Source: Pseudofabraea citricarpa
Lineage: Eukaryota > Ascomycota > Leotiomycetes > Helotiales > Dermateaceae
Direction: 5' to 3'
DNA length: 64,000 bases
Assembly (NCBI GenBank): GCA_029641185.1
Contig: JAPWGK010000012.1
Coordinates: 806,001 to 870,000 of the forward strand
Shown here: positions 49,112 through 63,524 of the stretch, in pieces
How positions within the stretch are numbered: the stretch's first letter is position 1
Layout: every line of letters starts with the position of its first letter
Translations under genes and position numbers: made by a program
Notes under the pieces: generated by a model
The model's input: the letters and a program-made list of their open reading frames with translations, nothing else
Told to the model about the DNA's origin: nothing
Databases searched by the model: none

Positions 49112-50513
49112 TCATATTGGCAACACAAGTGGGTGTAGAAAATTTTCATCGCCTTTTAGAAGTGTAGCAGAATATGTGCCAACACCCTCAAACTCCGAAA
49201 TGGCCCATTGCATCCTTGAGTGCCACTCCTTCGGTAGGAAGCCCATCAGAGTCTTGAATTCCTTATTTAGAGTACCCGAGATCCACCACAAGTTCTCAAC
49301 CCGCCGCAGAAGCATGAAGAAGTAAGCCACTATGGCGATCGTGCGTGGGTCCCTGTCTGCGAGCAGCTCAGTGAATCGTGCAGATACCTCGCCTGCGAAG
49401 CACAAGATATGTCCCGAAACAGTGCTGTTATGGATCTGAGAAAGATAGCGTACGGGTTTTTCGTAAGTCTCCATGTCTGGGTCATTTTCAGAGAGGCCTT
49501 CGAGAAGGAATGCGAAAACAGGCTGGGTACTTTCTGGCAGCGGCATGAGATCAGGATAGGGAAGTTTTTCTAGGTGTGCTTTGATATTCGAATGTTGTAG
49601 ATATGGCCAACATGCCAACCGGACAGTTTTAACTCCCTGATAGGGCCGAAACCAATGCAAAGGCAAGACGTCGTCTACGATGCCCCGCCGGGTCTGATTA
49701 ACGCTAATATTTTCGTGGAGGGCGATGAAGGTGCTTGTTGCGTATACAACTTCTGCATTGCGGCCAGTGATCCCGTCTTTTAGCAATTCTGCTTGGCCAG
49801 CTATGGCACGGGACATATATTCATGAGCAGCGTGATGTAAACGTCGATCATTCTTATTTACGGTGCGAAGATGAGTGGCAGCACAAGCTAGAAGGGCATC
49901 CATAAGCGAAGGCGTCGACTCAGCCAGCTCCAGCACCCAACTACTCCATATATATTGGCCGGTCATGTTTGATTTAGGCGAACTGTGTAGGTGAGAGGTA
50001 AAAGGTGTTGAGCTGAGGACCAGGTAGTGATGGAAAAGCCGAAGTTCCATGAGGCGATCCAATTGGGTGGTCATGTAAGACAAAGGGGAATGATAACATG
50101 ACTGTGGAAGAGGCGATGGACTCCTTGCGATGTAGTTGGATGTATTCTTATCTCGAGACGATGCCGTCGACATGCACGATGGTGATGGTGATGGTGATGA
50201 TATTGATATTGATATTGACGGGGAAGAAGAGACATTAGGCAGCTGGCCCCTTTTCCCCTGCAGCCTGGGGATCTGCACAGGCTGTAGATGTTCTGCGAGC
50301 TGCATCTCCAAAGAGCCAGAATCACAAGGCAGTCTCCTTCTCTGACAGGAGCCGCACAGTGGACGAGCCTCATCGCACTAGTAGATGGTATTAGCCCGAG
50401 AAAGCTATTCCGTCAAATCAGATTCCTGTAGGCCATCATCATACCTTAACTTTCCGTGCCTTGCAGTATCTACAACCCAATCTTGACTTTTTGTGTGGCC
50501 GTCTGGTAGCCAT
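49112..50513 (-). CDS. Zn2Cys6 transcription factor
   Basis: Predicted fungal binuclear-cluster regulator, 444 residues. Two exons: 50513-50445 and 50377-49112, with a 67-bp intron (GTATGA donor, CTAG acceptor) placed within the zinc cluster. The spliced cluster is C-X2-C-X6-C-X5-C-X2-C-X6-C, starting GCRYCKARKVKC at residues 13-25. It is preceded by basic residues (RRPHKKSRL). A Ser/Pro tract (SISISISSPSPSPS) encoded by a short DNA repeat links to a C-terminal region with the helical pattern of fungal regulator middle domains (SPLSYMTTQLDRLMELRLFH, ALLACAATHLR, GVKTVRLACW). Without the intron the protein would lose its DNA-binding region. No adjacent biosynthetic cluster was seen, so its targets are unknown. 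Confidence 0.88.
50176..50220. repeat. In-gene GATGGT/GATATT short tandem repeat
   Basis: GATGGT is repeated three times and GATATT three times in the coding sequence of the Zn2Cys6 gene. Read on the minus strand it encodes the SISIS and SPSPSPS tracts. Length variation would change the linker but not the frame. Confidence 0.8.
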
Positions 50514-51050: not shown

Positions 51051-54000
51051 TCAATCCTCCTGTAGGAAACCAAGGAGGGCCTTGATCCCACTAGGGCCAA
51101 GGCCGCCTTTAGGATAGCAAACGTAAACTGGCTCGTTGGTAACTCCCATCTTTTCTCTAAACTCGGACTTGTTGGTAAGCTTGAATTGCTTGTTGATCGC
51201 CTCATAGGTCCGCTTCAATGCCTTGACCTTCGTCTTGCCCATATTCCTGCCACCTTCCAGACTGGCCATAGCTCCAGTACCGAAAGTGACCTTCTTGGTG
51301 TCAGGATCCGCAGCAGCGATTGACTTCATGGAAAAGAGAATCAAAGACTCTATAGTCCCGGACGGCGCCCCGGGGAACTCGAGAGAGAACTTGACCTGAT
51401 AACCATTTACTGGTGAGAGTTGATGGAGGACGACAATGGCGTGGATTGTTCCATCCGTACCCTGGGCATAATAGTAGCGACGGTGTTCCTGATCAATCCA
51501 AGGTCGGATCTGAGTAAGATGGATCTGGGCACCTTTGCGGTTCTTGTGCCAGTCCTGAATCCTTGCATCGATCTTTTGTTGAATATCCTCCGGTATGGGT
51601 TCATTGGTTGGCAGAGCAATTTGTTTCATACCTTCTTTTTCTGCGTGACGAAGCTTTCGTGCAAGATCGGAGTCTTTAGCAGCAGGATTATTTCGTGGAT
51701 CAGCACGCTCCTCAGCAGCACATGCTAAAGTTCGCCATGCAAACTTCTCCCCAACATACTCCTCAACCTCGGGTCCCGCAATCATCCAGATCGGTTTCAC
51801 GCCCTTGTGCTCATCCTTTAAATACTGCAGGAACCCAGAGATTACTGAGGGGTATTGGTTCTTGGAGCACAGAGGATCGCCGATAGCGATAGCAAAATGA
51901 TTATGGAGAATATAGCCTTGAGCTGCACCAGTTGAGGGTTGACGCCAGACTTTGTAGCGTTCATCAAGCCAAGATGTGTTGGCAGCGTCACCATAGTTTG
52001 CAATGAGCTTTTCCAGTGGTTGTGGAAACTTCGACAGCTCCGAGTTAGTTTCGATGTCCTTATTTTCCCAAGGAGGATTGGTTGTGCTGGCTTCCTCGTG
52101 ACGGAGAGTGAAAGCTGCAGCTTTAGCGGGAAGAGATTTTGGATCGCGTGGGAAGAGTGACGCGAGACGAATGTTCCCAAGATTAAGAAATAGATATGTT
52201 AAGCGCTCAAGTCCAATACCACATCCTGCATGTGGCGGTGCACCCCAGCGGAAGCCCTCGATGTATTCGGGCATCGATTCGGGTTTTACACCTAGGCTCT
52301 TCATTCGCTCCTCTAAGAACTTGGCGTCATGAATACGCTGGCCACCAGACAAGATTTCTTGTCCGCGCATAAAAATATCGAAAGAGTTGGTGATTCTGGG
52401 GTCATCTGCGTCGGGCATCGTGTAGAACGGACGCGCGGAAGCAGGGAACTTGTCCAAGATGTAATAATCGGTCTTGTACTTGATCTTGACAAGAGCACCA
52501 AGCCGTCGTTCTGCCGGAGTAGAAAGATCCTCGTAAGGGGAAGGAGAGCTGCCATCTTCGTCTTTGAAATCATCATCAACAAGCATCTGAACACCCTCTG
52601 AGAAGGGAATTCGAGGCGTGACATCTAGCCACTCTACCTTCTCGTGCGGGTAGAAATGAGAAATAATCTCAATCTCGTTGCTGTACCTGTCATAAATGCC
52701 TTGCCAGAGATGTTTGAACATCCCATCTATGATATTCAGAGCTTCATGGTAATGCTCTTCCAATGCCATTTCGAGATCCAAGCCAGTGTATTCTGTCAAA
52801 TGACGCGGGGTGTTACTATCTTCGGCACGGAAAACAGCACCAATCTCGTAAACTCTCTCGAAATCGGCAGCGATGCACATCTGTTTGGCCAATTGAGGGG
52901 ATTGTGCAAGGAATGCTGATCGCCCAAAATAATTGAGTTCAAAGACGGTAGCACCAGATTCCGTAGCGCCTCCCTGTAATTTTGGCGTATGGATCTCAAT
53001 AAACCCCTCTCCATCGAGGTATGTCCGGAAGAGGTTACAGATACCGGACTGTATGCGGAAGATACATTGCGAAGGAGCGGTGCGAAGGTCCACGATACGA
53101 TTGTTTAGTCTCACTCGTTGCGGCAATGATCGAGATTGGTGAGCTGCGGCGAGGTGTCTTGCTATGTCAGTGCTGCCTTGAGAACGGTCAGTATATATAG
53201 TGTTGGTTAATTAATAGCAAGACTTACTTCTTCCTATCAAATCTACGCTAGCTTGGGTTTGATCAGTCCAACTTCACTTGTTTCATTGGAAGAGTTACTT
53301 ACTACGACTGGATGGAGCCATGCTGCTCCGTGGGGTAGCCGGCGAAGAGAGGTCCTCGCCGGCCGACGAGGAATCTTCCTCCTTCTCGACCTCTTCTTTG
53401 TCTCTGTTGATGTTCTCGGCATCGTAGACAGTGAAAGGTACATTCTCGGCCAATTGAGTAACTCTGTGAATTTCAGAGACCTCAATTTCGAATTCGTGGA
53501 CTGTTGCGTTTTTGATCTTTTGAGGTGCTCTGCGAATTTTCCCGGTTACCACTACAATTGTCTCGGCAGGGTAATGCTCAATGCTTCGGACCATCTGCTC
53601 TGAGATCGTCCCGTTACCGCCATCGCCTTCTGTGGAGCCTGTCAGATATACGCCACTGCTTGGCAGGGAGTTAATCGTACCTTTAGCCACTTCACCTTGC
53701 GGGCGGAAAGTTTGCAGAACCCCCTGTATGGTGATTGTCTGTTGACGGAAGACGATGAAAACAAGTTTCGCGCTCATCCGACGCAGTGTGTGGATGCGGG
53801 CTCGAAAAGTTATTACTTTCCCTTCCAAGTCTATGCGACGGATATCAGCCAGTTAACTTTAAATTTGGGGGAAGGGAGAAAAAAAAACCCCACCCTCCAA
53901 GACTGTTTTTGCAATGCCAGTTGACCTCAGTTGAAGAGCCGCTTACCTGCAAAGTTCAATTCTTTGAACTGGAGCCTCTTCTCGTTGTCCCATTTCTTGC

Positions 54001-54364
54001 TCTGATTCATACTTAGGGGTTTGTAAAGTCGTGTGAGCTCCTCTGGCCCCTCTTGCATGAATCTCTCGCTCTCGATTCTTCGTAGGTGTTCCCTCTGCTT
54101 AGACTGAGCTTTGGATCGCTCCTTGTCCATGCTTCGCCTCTTCCGTTCCATCTCAATGACCTCGCGGCTGCGACGCCGCGAGTCGGAATTTGGCGTAGCA
54201 GCGCCATTGTTGTCTGGGGTAGAAGTACCATTGACCGGCTGGACGACCGGGGAATCAGGCACTCCTTTGGTCCCCGTCTTCTCCTCTCCCAGTGAGGTCG
54301 TTGAGCTCGAGGGGCTGGCGCCAAAGTCGCGAATCTTTCGAAGGTTCTTCTTGATGAACGACAT
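51051..54364 (-). CDS. erdS: ErdS: ergosteryl-3-beta-O-L-aspartate synthase (AspRS-DUF2156 fusion)
   Basis: Bifunctional enzyme. The AspRS part charges tRNA-Asp, and the C-terminal DUF2156 domain moves aspartate to ergosterol to make the sterol conjugate Erg-Asp (known for this family; inferred here). Four exons: 54364-53947, 53830-53303, a 15-bp microexon 53242-53228, and 53176-51051, giving 1,028 residues. After a basic/Ser-rich start, an OB-fold region has TFRARIHTLRRMSAKLVF. The class-II core has LNNRIVDLRT, motif 2 FRAEDSNTPRHLTEYTG near 436-452, and motif 3 GIGLERL near 640. DUF2156 runs from about 703 to the end (SWLDERYKVWRQPSTGAAQG, IAIGDPLC). A few splice choices are uncertain: the last intron could use the acceptor 15 bp further on (53161), keeping frame. 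A cytosolic-type AspRS without fusion would stop near residue 680. A 9-bp tandem repeat lies upstream at 54714-54750. Confidence 0.93.
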
Positions 54365-55762
54365 GACTACAAGGAACGGGAGGCTCTGGGCAGCTGGTGG
54401 GAGCACAAGAGGCCGAGTTGTGGCAGAACTCGCGATGTTGAGAAAAAGACGACGAGAACAAAGTGTAAGATATGCAATGCAGGTGGCTTTATAAGCTAGA
54501 GTTCAGGTTGGAATCGGAAATCGGAAGTTGCGGCGAGAGATCGTCTTGTGGCGCGTCCGGGATTCCACACAACCAACAGCCGTCTGCAGGCTGGCTGATG
54601 GTGCTGTAGTGTAGAGTTTTTGCACAGCGGGAGATCCGGAATCCGAAGTATCTGTCTATCAGGTGGTGCGCACAGTGCTTCGGGAGCAATGGCCGGGAAC
54701 AGAAAAAAGAACAGGTGAAGAGGGTGAAGAGGGTGAAGAGGGTGAGGGTGGTGATGGAGGAGCGGGAAGGCTACGCGGTATAGGGGATCGATCTGAGGAA
54801 GGGCGAGAGGTACTGTGCAGTACAGTACAGTAGGATATGACGGGACAGGGCAGGGCAGAACAGGGCAGACAAGGCACAGGCTGGTTGATGTTCGTCCAAA
54901 GAAAGAAGAGGTACGAGGTAAATTGACCAAAAGACGGGTGATGAATGTGTACAGCACAGTAGGTAGGTACTGTAGTAGATGTGATGTCACTCTGTTTCAA
55001 GGCCATGGCAACAACCCAGCCTTACCACTTGCAATATGCCCGATGCCACACGCGTTCTAGACGTCTCAATGTCTCTATTAAAAAAAAAGCTCATCTGCTT
55101 ATCACTCTCACTGCTCTGCTCTGCTGCAACGTCATGCATGGTGTCAGGATGGCAGGGTGCGCTCAGCAGGGAAAAAGAAGAAGAAAAAGCCAACGAATGC
55201 ACAAAGCTTAACTCACCGCAGGAGCTCAGGTCCGGCCTGTCCAGTCCCCAGCCCAGTGTCCACAGTGCCCAGTCATCATCCATCATCCATCATCCACCAT
55301 GCCAATCAATGCCAGGTGCCAGGTGCCCGTGCGTGTATCTTGATCTCTTTGTGGGTTGGGCTATATAGCCCTCAACATCGCCTATGTAGCCCTCAACACA
55401 GCCACACCGGAGTCCATATCGGAGGAAGCATGCCTCGCACTGACACTGAAAAGAAGTCAAGTTTTTTAATCGATTCGAACTGTACCTATATCCCTTTTAT
55501 ACGTTAAGATACGAAGAAAGGGAATCGATCAATCAAAATTGACGCGTTTCGATTATATGAATATTCATGTATTACCAATTTTACTTTCTTATTTTTCTCA
55601 GCCCTAGGATACATAAAATGAATCATTACTCAATCCCCCGGAACTCCATTCCACTCATCTCTTTTTTGTCTTCTCTTTTCGTGAATCCGTCGTCCTGAAT
55701 ATTCCATGTGTAGAGGAGAAGAGGATAGGTTCTGCTTTTGACTTTTACTTTGACAAGATTAT
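54365..55762. other. Intergenic region between erdS and the UAP1 gene
   Basis: About 1.4 kb with the erdS promoter and the 3' flank of the UAP1 gene. It contains the 9-bp repeat described separately. Short open frames on both strands have no family features. It becomes A+T rich after 55460. Confidence 0.5.
54714..54750. repeat. 9-bp tandem repeat upstream of erdS
   Basis: About four copies of GGTGAAGAG, the last degenerating to GGTGAGGGT. It lies about 350 bp upstream of the erdS start codon. Confidence 0.8.
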
Positions 55763-57400
55763 CTAGACTTCCTTCTCCAACACTGCGGGTGCAGTAATGT
55801 TCTTCCCCCTGAGATTTTCTAAGCCCTCGCCGCCCTGTGGAGATTTTTGTTAGTCAGATGATCTATGGGGCTTTTTGATTAAAAGGGGGAGGAAAGGGGA
55901 GAGACATACATAGCTAACGAGAGGAGAAATCTCAATGCCGTCTTCAGAACCCTCACTCACGACCACAGCGCCAGCAGCGCGAGCCCATCGCGCTCCCTGC
56001 TGCATGATATCGCGTTTACTCGTATCCTGATCATCCTCACCGGTGCCCTTAGCATTCTTCAGGGGCGAGAACTCATCTTCACGCTTGACTTCCATGCAAG
56101 CGAACTTGTTGAGTTCCAGGAGCGGGAAGACGTCAAAGACAAACTGCTCGAGTTTGATGCCGTTGGGTTTCTCAGGCTTGACCGTTTCGCCCTTCTCGGT
56201 ATCAACGTAGGGGATCTTCTTGCGGGCGACGTGGTGCGGGAGCTTGCTAACCCACTCGGGGATGGATTCTAGAAAGCGGAACGAGTAGTAGTGGTTGACG
56301 ATGTTGGCAGCGCGGAACTTGAGCACCTCGTGCTGCTTGCTGTCCTTGGCTTCGGCCGTCTCCTTGTCGATCTCAGAGTACTCGACGACGTCGGGCTTGC
56401 TGTTCTTCAGCAGAATCAAACCGACAGATTCCGTGGCGTTGCGCTTGCGTACCACCTTTGTAGCGATGTCGACGTCTTTCGAGGCTGAGAACCCGATGAA
56501 GACGGGGTCAGCTACTTTGACTAAACAGTTGTCGACGCAGTAGGCGTGGACGTGTTGGATGCCTCGCTTGCGCATGTCGCCCATGACGGGCGAGGTAATA
56601 AGTGCTTGGTAGATGCCACCATTTCCATCTGGAGCCACGGCAACCTTGGCCTTACTCTCCAACAAGATCTTGCCGTCATTCGAGATACACGGTAAGACGC
56701 CCTGCTCGAAAATGACAATATTCTCCTTAGACAGGCCGAAGTAGTTGTGCTCCTCGAAATACTGCTCGGTAGGACCGCGAGTTGGTCCACTGGTCATGAC
56801 ATACCAGGGAACGACGACCTTCTTGTCCGCTGATAATCCGGCTTTCTTGTGAGCTAGATGCTGCACTTTGCGTATCCGCTCCGCTTGGATCTGGAAAAGG
56901 GATTTCTCCGAGGGGAGGCCAATGTTGAAGCATCCCTTGGGAGCAGAACTTCCCAGACGAGTCCCCTGCCCACCAGCCATAAGAACCACAGCCACCTTAT
57001 TTTCGGCAATCAGATCCAGACCAGCCTCATACCACTTCTCAATATCCTCCGTCTTGGAATCCAGGATACTGGCCGTGGCCGATTCGGGAAGCGGCTCCAG
57101 CTCATCCTTCTTGTCTTTCTTGGTGCCATCTTCGTCTGTCTCTTGCTCGGCCTTGGGAGGATTCAGGGCCTTGTCTGTGATGGAGTTGATGTGCGCGGGA
57201 TCGAAAGACGAGAGCTGTTCGTAGAGAGCAGCTTTCTCGGGGGTACTGAGGGAATCATAGAAAGCAAAGACTTGTTCCTGTTTGGCGTCGCTATATTTCT
57301 TCTTAAGCTCCGCGAGCTGCTCTGACGTAGGTTCCTTTGCTGAAGCTTGTGCCTCCCCGCCAATATGCAACTTGTGCAAGATATTCTGAACAGCCTCCAT
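55763..57400 (-). CDS. uap1: UDP-N-acetylglucosamine pyrophosphorylase
   Basis: Makes UDP-GlcNAc from UTP and GlcNAc-1-phosphate, the precursor for chitin, GPI anchors and N-glycans; cytosolic. Two exons: 57400-55910 and 55834-55763, giving 520 residues, typical for the family. The nucleotide-binding signature [11 protein letters not shown] lies at 140-150, followed by the family lysine in [12 protein letters not shown]. Substrate-site motifs VMTSGPT, PDGNGG and the [11 protein letters not shown] segment are present. The second exon encodes the conserved tail ([20 protein letters not shown]). Without the intron (GTATGT donor, CACAG acceptor) the protein would read through into a shorter, non-conserved tail. 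It lies between erdS and the hydrolase gene and is divergent from the latter. Confidence 0.96.
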
Positions 57401-57941
57401 GTTCGGGTAGCTGCTTGCTGCTTGTAGATTAAAAAATCAGTGGTCGTTCCGAGGGGAATGGGGTTCAAGTATTGTCAAGGGGAGGATTTGGTGGTAAACT
57501 TCAATGGTTTCCTCTTTTATGTTTTGGTCTTGGGCTTGGTCTTGGGCCCCAACCCCAAGCAGACAGAAAACTGCTTTGTCAGCCTGTCACCGCAAACAAA
57601 GCAAACACTGAATGGCCTATGGCCTGTCTGGGAAGGCGGTGAGACCGGGGTCACGTTGATGCGAACACGACACGCATACAGCGCTCTCGCTTTACCAACG
57701 TCATTCCGTGCTTCAACTACTCTGATTTTCGCCAGCAGCCCCCTTCGTGCCCCCCCTCAAAATCATCCCATGTCTTTGCCAGACCCTATTAGAGTGGAAG
57801 CAGCCCACGTATCTGCAGCTAAGGGCTATGATAGCTGATCCTTTGCCTCGATTGGTCCCATGATATGCCAAGGAATTCTCCATCTATCGCCATCCTTCAT
57901 CATTTCCACCTCCACCTCCACCTCTCTTCTCTCCCACTGTC
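57401..57941. other. Divergent promoter region (uap1/hydrolase)
   Basis: About 540 bp with both promoters. No gene recognised; an open frame at 57440-57838 lacks family features. There is a pyrimidine-rich tract (ccacctccacctcc) at 57904-57923, just before the hydrolase start. Confidence 0.5.
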
Positions 57942-59369
57942 ATGAGCATCCGATATGCTCGTTGGTGTATGCTCATGAAAGCAGTCATCTGGAGGGCCTT
58001 GATGGCCATTGGCATGAAACTACATCACTTTGCTGAACCAAAGCCGCCTTCGCCGTCCTTCAAAATTGTCATCCCATCGCGCTTGTCGGGATCGCCAGGC
58101 ACTTTCAAGCTTGTGTTATACGTCCCTCAGGGCTACTTGGATGACGATAGCGACTACAGATGGCCAGTGGTCATCAACTTCCACGGAGGAGGATTCACCC
58201 TAGGCACTGGCACAGATGATGCGCGGTGGGCAGCGGCAATAGTCCAGAAAGCAGACGCTGTTCTCGTCAGTGTGGAATATCGACTTGCGCCGGAATACCC
58301 CTTCAGTGTCGGCGTAGAAGATGGAACAGATGCCCTCATCTACATTGCATCGCATGCCGAGGAACTACGCCTCGATCCCAAACGGATAGCACTTTCAGGC
58401 TTCTCGGCCGGCGGCAACTATGCCCTGACAGTACCTCTTATGCTCTACGACCTGCAGAACAACACCGGCAAACGGTCGTTAACCAACATACCCTCCAGAA
58501 CGATTTATGGAAATGCTAGTACTTATGGGCAGAGCAACTCAACTCTGGGCTTACCCAGACCCGACATTGTGCGAACGGCCTCAAACAATTCTTCCACGAT
58601 CAAGCTCACCGACCTTGAACCAACCGAATTAGAAATCAACCAGAGAGTTCCCGACCTGAAGATCCTGGCCATAGTCGCCTTCTACCCACCGACAGATTTT
58701 CGAATTAGTCGCGCCGAGAAACGAGTGACAAATCCAGTTCCAGAGAAGAATCTCCCACCAAGCTTGACAACGCTATTCGACGATGCGTACCTCCATCCCC
58801 TTGCAAGCATTGACTTTACCGATCCGTATCTTTCTCCTGCAGCGGCTTCGGATGCCTTTTTGAAAGCGGCATATCCTCAGGATATCGTCTTGTACACATG
58901 TGAATATGATATGTTAAATGCCGAAGGTGTAGCTTTTGGCGAGCGATTAAGTGGACCTACGATTAACAAGACTGTCAAAGGTGGCTTGATAAAACAAGTG
59001 CCACACGCATTCGATAGGAAGCCGAACCCAATCGCATTTCCTAAAGCAGCCGATCGGTGTTATTCGGAAGCATGTGCAGAATTGATGAGGGTGTTTGGTG
59101 GGAGGACAAGCATTGAAGAGAGAACACAACTAGATAAGAGTGTGACTGTAGAGCGATTTGACGATGCAGATAGAGAAGCAGTGAATCGATACTCCTACGG
59201 CCATGATGACGCAGAGCGGGTGTTAGACGACGGAATCGGGGAGGCATCTAGAACCCCCCAAGATAGCACTGGGAAAGGAAAGATGAAGATGGGCATCGGT
59301 ATGGGATTAGGGAAAGGGAAAGACAAGAGCAGTGGTAAGCCACCTCATGATGTGTCGGCATTAGTATGA
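57942..59369 (+). CDS. HSL-type alpha/beta hydrolase, candidate Erg-Asp hydrolase (ErdH)
   Basis: A 475-residue single-exon hydrolase of the hormone-sensitive-lipase type. The oxyanion motif HGGG is at 81-84 and the nucleophile elbow GFSAG puts Ser155 as nucleophile. Probable acid Asp323 (CEYDMLN) and base His355 (VPHAFDR) complete the triad. A hydrophobic, amphipathic N-terminus (residues 8-25) may bind membranes, fitting a sterol-linked substrate. A charged Gly/Lys-rich tail of about 90 residues follows the catalytic domain. In other fungi the Erg-Asp pathway pairs ErdS with a hydrolase, ErdH. Because erdS is less than 4 kb away, this gene is a fair candidate, but carboxylesterase or arylacetamide-deacetylase function cannot be excluded from sequence alone. 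Confidence 0.85.
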   Translation: MSIRYARWCMLMKAVIWRALMAIGMKLHHFAEPKPPSPSFKIVIPSRLSGSPGTFKLVLYVPQGYLDDDSDYRWPVVINFHGGGFTLGTGTDDARWAAAIVQKADAVLVSVEYRLAPEYPFSVGVEDGTDALIYIASHAEELRLDPKRIALSGFSAGGNYALTVPLMLYDLQNNTGKRSLTNIPSRTIYGNASTYGQSNSTLGLPRPDIVRTASNNSSTIKLTDLEPTELEINQRVPDLKILAIVAFYPPTDFRISRAEKRVTNPVPEKNLPPSLTTLFDDAYLHPLASIDFTDPYLSPAAASDAFLKAAYPQDIVLYTCEYDMLNAEGVAFGERLSGPTINKTVKGGLIKQVPHAFDRKPNPIAFPKAADRCYSEACAELMRVFGGRTSIEERTQLDKSVTVERFDDADREAVNRYSYGHDDAERVLDDGIGEASRTPQDSTGKGKMKMGIGMGLGKGKDKSSGKPPHDVSALV

Positions 59370-59676
59370 AAATGCATGTACGTTCTTACTTGATGATTTT
59401 GAAATGGTTTGACGAACTAGAAAGCGCTGAATTTAGATCTCGTAGAGATATATATATTTGTAAATTAAGACAGATTTTTACTTGCAACTGTGTATTTATG
59501 TATCTATGGTTACATGGAATAAGCTTACATGCATCATCCACCTGAACTAATCATGTGATACCCGCAAGCGTTTGACCATCTGATATCACATGCCTTCTTT
59601 AAAGTTAATGCCATGTTGGACCTCAATTCGACTCTCCATGATTGCCTAGCAAATTTAATTGGTGAGCACTTCAACA
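59370..59676. other. Intergenic region hydrolase/desaturase
   Basis: About 300 bp with a poly-A/T-rich section and the likely promoter of the desaturase. An ATG at 59613 opens a different frame and was not used. Confidence 0.45.
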
Positions 59677-61028
59677 ATGACGAAAACGACATATTGCTCG
59701 GCATCTCGAAGTTCGATCAAAGCCCGAATCAAAAGCTTCCTCCACTCTGTCAATTATTGGAATTCATTCTGGGTTCTCGCTGTTCCTGCTTTCGGCCTCT
59801 ATCTCTCCCTCTCTACTCCTCTTCTCTACAAGACTCTTACATGGAGCATTATCTACTATTACATAACTGGTCTGGGGATCACTGCCGGTATGCCCTACCC
59901 TTTCCTTCCGTGTGAATAAGGCTAACAAACACACCAAAAGGTTATCATAGACTCTGGTCTCATCGTTCTTATAATGCTTCGGTGGTTTTGAGGGTCATCC
60001 TGGCCATTACCTCTGCAGGGGCCATTCAAGACAGTATTCGTACTTGGTCTGCAGATCACAGGGCTCATCACCGCTGGACAGATACCTCTCTGGATCCGTA
60101 TTCTGTTCGGAAAGGCCTGTTCTATTCACATATAGGATGGCTTATCTTTAAGCAACCACCTGTTCAGAGCACCAAACCTCGCCCGTCTGTTTCTGATCTT
60201 GATCGTGATGACGTGGTCGTATGGCAACATCGATATTACATCCCATTGGCATTATTCATGGGCTACCTATTCCCCTCTCTTATTTCACAGGCCCTGTGGA
60301 ATGATGGAAAAGGCGGTTTTGTCTACGCAGGTATTTTAAGAGTATTCGCTGTACAGCAGTGCACCTTCTGTGTCAACTCGCTCGCACACTACTTAGGCGA
60401 TGCAACTTTCTCAGATATTAACTCTCCACGGGACCATGTGGTCACAGCATTGCTAACACTTGGAGAAGGTTATCATAATTTCCATCATGAGTTTCCAAGT
60501 GATTATCGTAATGCAGTGATGTGGTGGCAGTACGACCCAACAAAGTGGCTAATTGCAGGTAGTAAGTCGATAGGTCTAGCAAGCGACCTAAAGACATTCA
60601 ACCAAAATGTTATTGAAAGAGGGAAGTTGCAGCAGGAGGTCAAAGCTCTCCGACACCAGCTTGGAGATTCCTCATTGGAACTGCATGCAAGCCGATTGTG
60701 GACATGGGATGGCTTTCAGGAGGAAGTTATGGAGAAAGCAAGAAAACTTACGGTTATTGCTGGATGTGTGTATGAAGTAGAAAAGTTTACCAAGATACAT
60801 CCTGGAGGCGAAATGTTGTTGTTGATGGCTGTGGGTAAGGATTCAACAGCGCTGTTTAACGGCGGTGTCTATAATCGTGGGTTTCCCAGAACAAGTGATA
60901 CTCATGATTCCATTAACAAGTTAATAGACTCAAATGATGCAAGGAATATACTTAAAGGGCTTAAGATTGGCATTTTGAGAGGTGGTGGCGAGGTTGAGAT
61001 CTGGAAGCGCAATTTCAAAGAAGTATAG
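59677..61028 (+). CDS. Delta-9 acyl-CoA desaturase with C-terminal cytochrome b5 domain (Ole1 family)
   Basis: ER enzyme that puts a cis-9 double bond into saturated acyl-CoAs. Three exons: 59677-59887, 59941-60876 and 60928-61028, giving 415 residues. The three His boxes are HRLWSH (73-78), HRAHH (110-114) and HNFHH (249-253). Two paired hydrophobic regions span the membrane. The cytochrome b5 tail has the heme motif HPGG (357-360). The 51-bp last intron (GTGGGT donor, branch-like ATTAAC, AATAG acceptor) is easy to miss, because reading through it stays open. Splicing restores YNHSNDARNIL, which provides the second heme His; the read-through version lacks it. The start is the weakest part: the N-terminus is about 30 residues before the SVNYWNSFW segment, and an additional upstream exon is possible. 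It is shorter than yeast Ole1. Confidence 0.88.
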
Positions 61029-61242: not shown

Positions 61243-63524
61243 TTATCGTCTTTGGTCTAGGAATTCTTTTGCAGATCCCCATGCCTTCATGTCTGCCTCT
61301 GGAATCTCCTTCCCCAATGTTTTCACTCCTTCATACAATGCGTCAAAGAAGCTAAACGCCACGTCGAGATCCTCTACAAAATTGACACTGAGTGGAAGCA
61401 GAGCTCTTCCAGCTGGTGGTGCATAATCTCTCTTTGCGTGTTCTTTCTGCTCTTGTGTCATGTCGGGTTGAATATGATCATCGAGGAATGTCTTGACAGC
61501 AATGCCAAGGCCAATATCCACGTCGCTGGCTAGCGGGAGACTACGACCTAACTCTTTCAACTCACTGTTTGAGCGATCAACTTGAGCACTCATCAGCATT
61601 GTGGCAGTAATAGCCTCAATGAGATCTCTATCTGCCTCTCGTACGACTTTAACTAAAGAGTAGTACAGAAGGAACACCTTGCTCAAAGGACCCGTGTAGC
61701 CATTCTCCCTGTGGCGAAGTTTTAGGAGACATGCTGCCCTGCCTATAAGCATACAGCTTGCCTTGTCTTCATCAGAGCCTCTGATAGAACCGCCAATCAA
61801 GTCTTTGTGTTGGTTCCGGGTATTCAAGTTATCAAGGCGAAGAAGCTCGTATGCCAAGAATGTAGCATCTTCGATATGATGGACGTCACCAAAGCTTTTG
61901 ATTACTGGCCGGAGAGCGTCATATGTAATCTTCAGAGCTTTGCCCCAGGCTGTAAGTTCATGATCGTCATTTGTATAGCCCCTGAGGTGAAGAAGACGCC
62001 ATAGAACGTTGGGCACAACCTCGGAATTTGGGTCTAATCCCTTGATCTTCTCGTTGTCTTTTCCTTTGAAGATGGTTTTCGCTACAAATGTTTTGTCGTC
62101 TAGGGCCAATAGAGCATATGATAGCTTGCCTTGGGAAGACTTTGTGGCTGTGGCTTGCCTTCTCAAATCAGAACTCTTCACAGCCCATGTATCTGCTTGA
62201 GTGTTAGGGTCTGGTTGAGGTGATCTATTTAGCTTTGGTCGAAGATTGTCGTCGAACCAGTATCTCATTGTTATGTCCTTAAATTTGAATGCTCGATGAA
62301 TGTGTGGCGTCAGTAGTGCGATTGTTTGCTCCTTAACTGGTATTAATTGCTTTGTCACCAGTGTCTTGTATTCCTCTGGTTGCTCTCCATCTAGAGTAGG
62401 GAAGACTATTATCTCCAAAGACCGTAGGTTGTTGAGTAACCTTGGCCCAACAACAGCTTGAGTAAGGTAATGGTATAATTCTGCGGGGAGTTGCAGACCT
62501 AAATACTCGTGGTTATCTCCAGTCAATCCATTGAAGTCTTTAATATTGATGCTGCCATCTACGTTCACAGTAATGCAGTGCTTAATGCCCAGCTTTGCTT
62601 TGCGGTAATTATCCAGCCAGTTTGGGTCCTCTCTTGTAAGAACATCATGGAACGCTGTGCAGACCGCGGTGACAGAACGATCAGAGGTTCTCAGAAGATT
62701 GACCGCATCTGTTATCTGGTAAGGTTGGCGAGTAATGATCGATTCGTCTTCCAAGGTTGGAAATGGCCGTAGGAATGAGGTGCCGACCATGAGTAAAGCA
62801 TCAGCAAATAGCTCTGGGGTAACAGCTAATCTGCTGATCAGATCCTGCTTGGAAACACCATGGATCACCTTGGCATCCCAGTCCTTGGCCCTCGGAGGGA
62901 ATACAACAGTGTCTGGACCATCATATAAGAGAAGCTCTTGAGAGCCCATTAGGCCGTCAATATATTGATCGGGTAGGTTGTAGATATGGGTGAGCTATTC
63001 ACATAAGCTACCACTATGGAAGAGGAGATTTCACAACTCTCACCTGAGCACATGCGCTGTATGGCGCAATCTTGTATTCATAACCACGTTCATCAAGAAT
63101 CTCTCTCAAGATGGGGTATAAATCAGTTACACGCGCAGCACCTACGTGTTGTCAGAGGTGCCTTGCATCAAAATGTGCAGGCTACTTACCAGATAAGCCA
63201 AAAAGTTTCACAGCGCCCGTTGAATTGCCATTGGTATAACAATTCCACGCTTCTTTGACTTTTGATAAGACGTCTTTTGAGTCTTTGAGGGCAACATTAT
63301 CTTTGCCAACTGTCGACTGGCCTTCGAACACAAATATTGGTGTTATCCCATTCTCCGCCCATAGATCCAAATCATCCCGTATGCACTTCTTTAACCCCAT
63401 AGGCTCTCCTCCAAGAGCAGGCAACAGTGGTTCATGTGCAGGTGTTTCGCAGATCATGTTCTGGAGATAGTATGAGGCTTCGACGCCGAGGACCTGTCCT
63501 TTCCATTCCGAGATTGGTTCCTTG
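61243..63524 (-). CDS. mkt1: Mkt1-like XPG-fold RNA-regulatory protein (5' end unresolved)
   Basis: Relative of yeast Mkt1, a catalytically inactive XPG-nuclease-fold protein that partners with Pbp1 in post-transcriptional control. Three internal-to-terminal exons are clear: 63524-63190, 63141-63044 and 62994-61243. They encode about 729 residues. The XPG-N region is in the first of these (GQVLGVEASYYLQNM, TPIFVFEGQ). The XPG-I region spans the second and third (APYSACAQ/LTHIYN, YIDGLMGSQELLLYDG). The MKT1 N and C domains fill the last exon. All joins keep frame (G/GT, CAG/CTC). The exon at 63524 starts in phase 2, so an upstream coding exon with the start must exist. The best local candidate is an exon ending at 63806 with a GTGAGT donor (WWIKDQR then ATC AAG GAA), which would keep frame, but no start codon was found. 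Confidence 0.85.

Follow-up and report, generated by a model that had tools for sequence, protein, structure and literature searches.

Ergosteryl-aspartate (Erg-Asp), ErdS and ErdH were reportedly described by Yakobov et al. in 2020 (PNAS), who are said to have reported the pathway as conserved in 'higher' fungi. Within the family, the AspRS half of ErdS is established to charge tRNA-Asp, and the DUF2156 half to pass aspartate to the 3-beta-OH of ergosterol. Synthesis of Erg-Asp by ErdS is stated in passages of PMC9437257, and passages of PMC10449517 cover both ErdS and ErgS. ErgS is a stand-alone transferase. Aspergillus fumigatus AFUA_1G02570 is given as erdS in part of PMC11619415, and aminoacylated ergosterol is treated in part of PMC12186260. 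Search by title and abstract found no publication on ErdH, of which passing mention in full text is possible.

The window, that is, the whole analysed stretch of 64,000 nucleotides of Pseudofabraea citricarpa, is part of contig C4, and the genome searched comprised 43,985,132 bases. Judged from sequence comparison, the window very likely carries both genes of the known Erg-Asp cycle, with the desaturase and UAP1 genes being mere neighbours. The neighbourhood is mostly ordinary, with the usual erdS beside a likely erdH, and brings no new mechanism to a pathway that is already known. Its features were:

49112-50377, minus strand: transcription-factor open reading frame with the PF11951 fungal domain (Pfam).
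51051-54364, minus strand: erdS, an AspRS-DUF2156 fusion, spliced to 1028 aa from exons 54364-53947, 53830-53303, 53242-53228 and 53176-51051 (Pfam, splicing, relatives, PDB matches).
55763-57400, minus strand: UAP1-like UDP-N-acetylhexosamine pyrophosphorylase, between erdS and the hydrolase, with exons 57400-55910 and 55834-55763 (PF01704).
57942-59369, plus strand: erdH candidate, an HSL-type alpha/beta hydrolase of 475 aa in one exon (PF07859, triad).
59677-61028, plus strand: paralog of delta-9 acyl-CoA desaturases with a cytochrome b5 domain, 415 aa, with exons 59677-59887, 59941-60876 and 60928-61028, the start codon being chosen by eye (PF00487, PF00173).
61243-62994, minus strand: MKT1.

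The AspRS catalytic domain and DUF2156 occurred in one chain of the window ErdS, within a single exon of 719 aa (PF00152, E 2.5e-76; PF09924, E 1.4e-9), and the preceding exon had an OB-fold match slightly below the cut-off (E 5.3e-6; 26.7 vs 27 bits). The protein was 90% identical to P0121 of Phlyctema vagabunda (Dermateaceae, Helotiales, Leotiomycetes) with 100% of the query covered. The fusion proposed by the sequence-only reading was confirmed by both results, and the identification of the window erdS as an Erg-Asp synthase gene is supported by sequence. By orthology, its AspRS half would charge tRNA-Asp and its DUF2156 half would transfer aspartate to ergosterol.

Nearly all of the 120 listed ErdS relatives carried both precomputed domains, and P0134 and P0211 showed PF00152 only. 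JGI names were present on 22 listed ErdS relatives, with 15 being 'nondiscriminating aspartyl-tRNA synthetase' and four 'aspartyl-tRNA synthetase'; the name 'ergosteryl-3beta-O-L-aspartate synthase' occurred on one of the 120 (P0185). Three PDB chains (862-947 residues) matched the main exon over residues 27-717 of 719, and the alignment of P0121 to 9w9f covered residues 325-1014, plus a weakly matching part at 4-273. The window ErdS resembled the two-domain chain of 9w9e, 9w9f and 9w9g, which are named there only 'Aspartate--tRNA ligase, cytoplasmic', and differed from 9w9f in length (1028 vs 947) with no functional difference seen. As with A. fumigatus ErdS, the fusion was additional to another AspRS-like gene: other AspRS-like exons in the genome were located at C3:903365-904409 (45-49%), and we infer that they belong to the canonical translational AspRS, distinct from erdS.

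The erdS exon 53242-53228 is a probable 15-nt microexon, with splice sites and a comparable stretch in P0121; the reading without it also remained open. There were only two DUF2156 (PF09924) matches in the genome, both on C4: erdS and C4:264737-265657. The second match lay about 590 kb from erdS in a 636-aa frame that lacked any AspRS domain (C4:263975-265885; L053:3976-5886), the sequence of which would fit a candidate ErgS-like transferase. About 0.5 kb downstream of that frame, on the opposite strand, L053:6429-7094 carried a GVSGG motif and had no Pfam match.

The hydrolase had been placed less than 4 kb from erdS, and the start-to-start distance was 3578 bp. Linkage in relatives was evaluated by comparing the 'longest contig' column between the listed hydrolase and ErdS relatives (119/120 and 120/120 rows used, respectively), equal values being assumed to denote one contig. 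Rows P0110 (7449), P0332 (6723813) and P0345 (100099), with values absent from the other two tables, were omitted. Twenty-one values were common to both lists (2000 jittered lists with values shifted by 0.5-10%: mean 0.35, maximum 4). Organism names were available on both sides for 10 of the 21, and the organism was the same in 10/10: P. vagabunda, Chlorociboria aeruginascens, Lachnellula hyalina, Hyphodiscus hymeniophilus, Venustampulla echinocandica, Sclerotinia trifoliorum, Calycina marina, Xylogone sp. PMI_703, Amylocarpus encephaloides and Mollisia scopiformis. We take all ten to be Leotiomycetes. The other 11 shared values were without an organism name on both sides. Fourteen shared contigs were shorter than 102 kb (shortest 5,442, 7,810, 10,534, 13,140 and 14,527 bases), and seven measured 0.95-5.7 Mb, at which size a shared value says little on closeness. 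The 21 shared values, together with the agreement of the ten named pairs, suggest that erdS-erdH linkage recurs in relatives.

In Chlorociboria, the hydrolase and erdS had consecutive gene numbers (g7854, g7855). On the 5,442-base contig, 1,575 bases were left beyond the coding lengths of the hydrolase and ErdS, against a UAP1 coding sequence of 1,563 bases in the window, so that UAP1 has no room within the pair. The two genes therefore look directly adjacent in Chlorociboria and on the one 5.4-kb contig, and the position of UAP1 between them, as in the window, would not be general.

Longest contigs differed for five species that appeared by name in each list (Diplocarpon rosae, D. coronariae, Clarireedia jacksonii, Rhynchosporium graminicola and Erysiphe neolycopersici). 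They also differed for Glarea lozoyensis and Drepanopeziza brunnea, in which the rows were of different strains or forms. In these seven, the two genes may be truly separated, or the difference may stem from contig breaks or from the use of other assemblies. Coleophoma had a hydrolase row and no named row among the 120 listed ErdS relatives. The linkage in relatives to which the sequence-only reading had pointed was thus borne out by the shared values and agreeing names, but not in the seven named species without a shared value. No novelty is claimed for it. The recurrent closeness offers a simple route to erdH in uncharacterised fungi, and suggests joint inheritance, and perhaps joint regulation, of synthesis and removal of Erg-Asp.

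The erdH candidate was a serine alpha/beta hydrolase (PF07859, E 5.2e-36) with an intact triad, the numbering of which (Ser155, Asp323, His355) was as previously given, and with HGGG at residues 81-84. The three triad residues were kept in 120/120 listed relatives (best 120 of 1093 above threshold), and identity to the P. vagabunda protein was 89%. Given this value and the 90% for ErdS, the sequences alone would place the source fungus near P. vagabunda, in Helotiales. The structural model had a mean pLDDT of 75.5, with 203 of 475 residues at or above 90, and pLDDT was below 50 at residues 84-88 (directly behind HGGG), 187-217 and 412-475. The model matched HSL-type esterases at 17-24% identity (50 rows shown). 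Fold, HGGG motif and triad order were like those of the microbial esterases 7zjo, 2c7b and 2yh2, whereas identity to these was 21-24%, and the window protein had three further elements: a hydrophobic helix at its N-terminus and two poorly predicted regions, one at about 187-217 and the other forming the tail from residue 412. The N-terminus had been described as amphipathic; the helix, predicted at residues 3-28, was not notably so (3150/10000 shuffles reached an equal or larger moment). This helix would anchor the esterase at a membrane, and the enzyme would cut the aspartyl ester and give back ergosterol.

The window hydrolase is probably ErdH, as the sequence-only reading had proposed, based on JGI labels, tree position and recurrent erdS linkage in relatives. 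It resembled ErdH in being a serine alpha/beta hydrolase linked to erdS and, by label, in the name 'putative ergosteryl-3beta-O-L-aspartate hydrolase' that JGI gives to five of the 120 listed relatives (best 120 of 1093). Orthology to the characterised Aspergillus ErdH rests on these labels. A 45-row tree, built from the window protein, 35 relatives taken from the 120 listed and nine own-genome paralogs (drawn from 23 with a frame found), separated the window hydrolase and its relatives from all nine paralogs (support 97/99), with the paralogs on long branches and their placement unsure according to a tool warning. In this tree, the five ErdH-named rows were inside the window hydrolase clade, scattered over several of its sub-branches, and the nine paralogs were outside.

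It is unlikely that the window hydrolase is instead an HSL-family esterase of another substrate (acetyl ester, steryl acetate or xenobiotic), and that the true ErdH is encoded elsewhere, by the paralog at C23:490079-491086 or a different gene. Of the own-genome paralogs, the C23 one comes nearest (45% over residues 27-168 and 43% over 240-386), it matched steryl acetyl hydrolase (Say1) in Pfam below threshold (E 6.4e-4; 19.1 bits vs a cut-off of 21), and 30 of the 120 listed relatives of the window hydrolase (best 120 of 1093) had the generic JGI name 'acetyl esterase/lipase'. Against this, the five ErdH names sit in the window hydrolase clade, the members of which recur on contigs sized like erdS contigs. 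The C23 paralog, in turn, has an M20 peptidase and a sulfate permease as near neighbours (8-kb stretch), and both DUF2156 matches of the genome are on C4. It joined the window hydrolase clade weakly (support 83/22). The C23 gene (L054:3580-4587) was a single open frame with HGGG and a GFSSGG elbow.

The two other enzymes had been put forward as possibly linked to the pathway. The UAP1-like gene itself was as described (PF01704 match at 55763-57400), the enzyme name within PF01704 being our assumption. No second copy was found in the genome, which had one match only. A functional link of UAP1 to the pathway was not sustained, with the gene being the sole copy found and seemingly not between the pair in at least two relatives.

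The relatives of the desaturase were searched with a query that still included a 51-nt intron, and the best 120 of 7974 were listed. The nearest was from Coleophoma cylindrospora (Dermateaceae; 66% identity), and the remaining 119, from many fungal groups, were 50-56% identical, with named rows among them mostly being delta-9 or acyl-CoA desaturases. No P. vagabunda row was present among the 120 listed of 7974; this species probably has no close desaturase orthologue or, alternatively, a gene model is missing. The genome had three matches, this gene among them. A short longest-contig value, 1968, was common to the hydrolase and desaturase lists, which was within chance (mean 1.16). With a single close relative among those listed, the desaturase is a divergent paralog of the delta-9 type, and nothing ties it to the pathway; the functional link proposed for it was not upheld.

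It is very doubtful that erdS-erdH forms a conserved two-gene unit of synthesis and removal in this part of Ascomycota that was joined in some Dermateaceae by the divergent desaturase paralog; if true, acyl unsaturation and sterol aspartylation would be set together. A four-gene sterol-aspartylation neighbourhood, with the desaturase and UAP1 also serving the pathway, is suggested by their position beside erdS and the hydrolase and by the longest-contig value (5,336,071) shared by the desaturase and hydrolase relatives of C. cylindrospora, but it is very improbable: that contig of 5.3 Mb shows no closeness, the listed desaturase relatives lack P. vagabunda despite the 90% (ErdS) and 89% (hydrolase) identity of this species to the window proteins, the desaturase has three genome matches and UAP1 one, and the pair is consecutive in Chlorociboria and leaves 1,575 bases on the 5,442-base contig.

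The desaturase frame first read at 59916-61028 was correctly assigned as a delta-9 desaturase, but it missed exon 1 (59677-59887) and retained the 51-nt in-frame intron (60877-60927). The spliced protein contained HRLWSH, HRAHH, HNFHH, HPGG and, after removal of this intron, YNHSN, which we take to be the three histidine boxes and both heme histidines of the C-terminal cytochrome b5. Loss of a cytochrome b5 heme ligand, as seen in the unspliced frame, was ruled out by the intron (GTGGGT donor, TAG acceptor), the removal of which restores YNHSN. Such an in-frame intron is easily missed when reading from stop to stop, and mimics the loss of a heme histidine.
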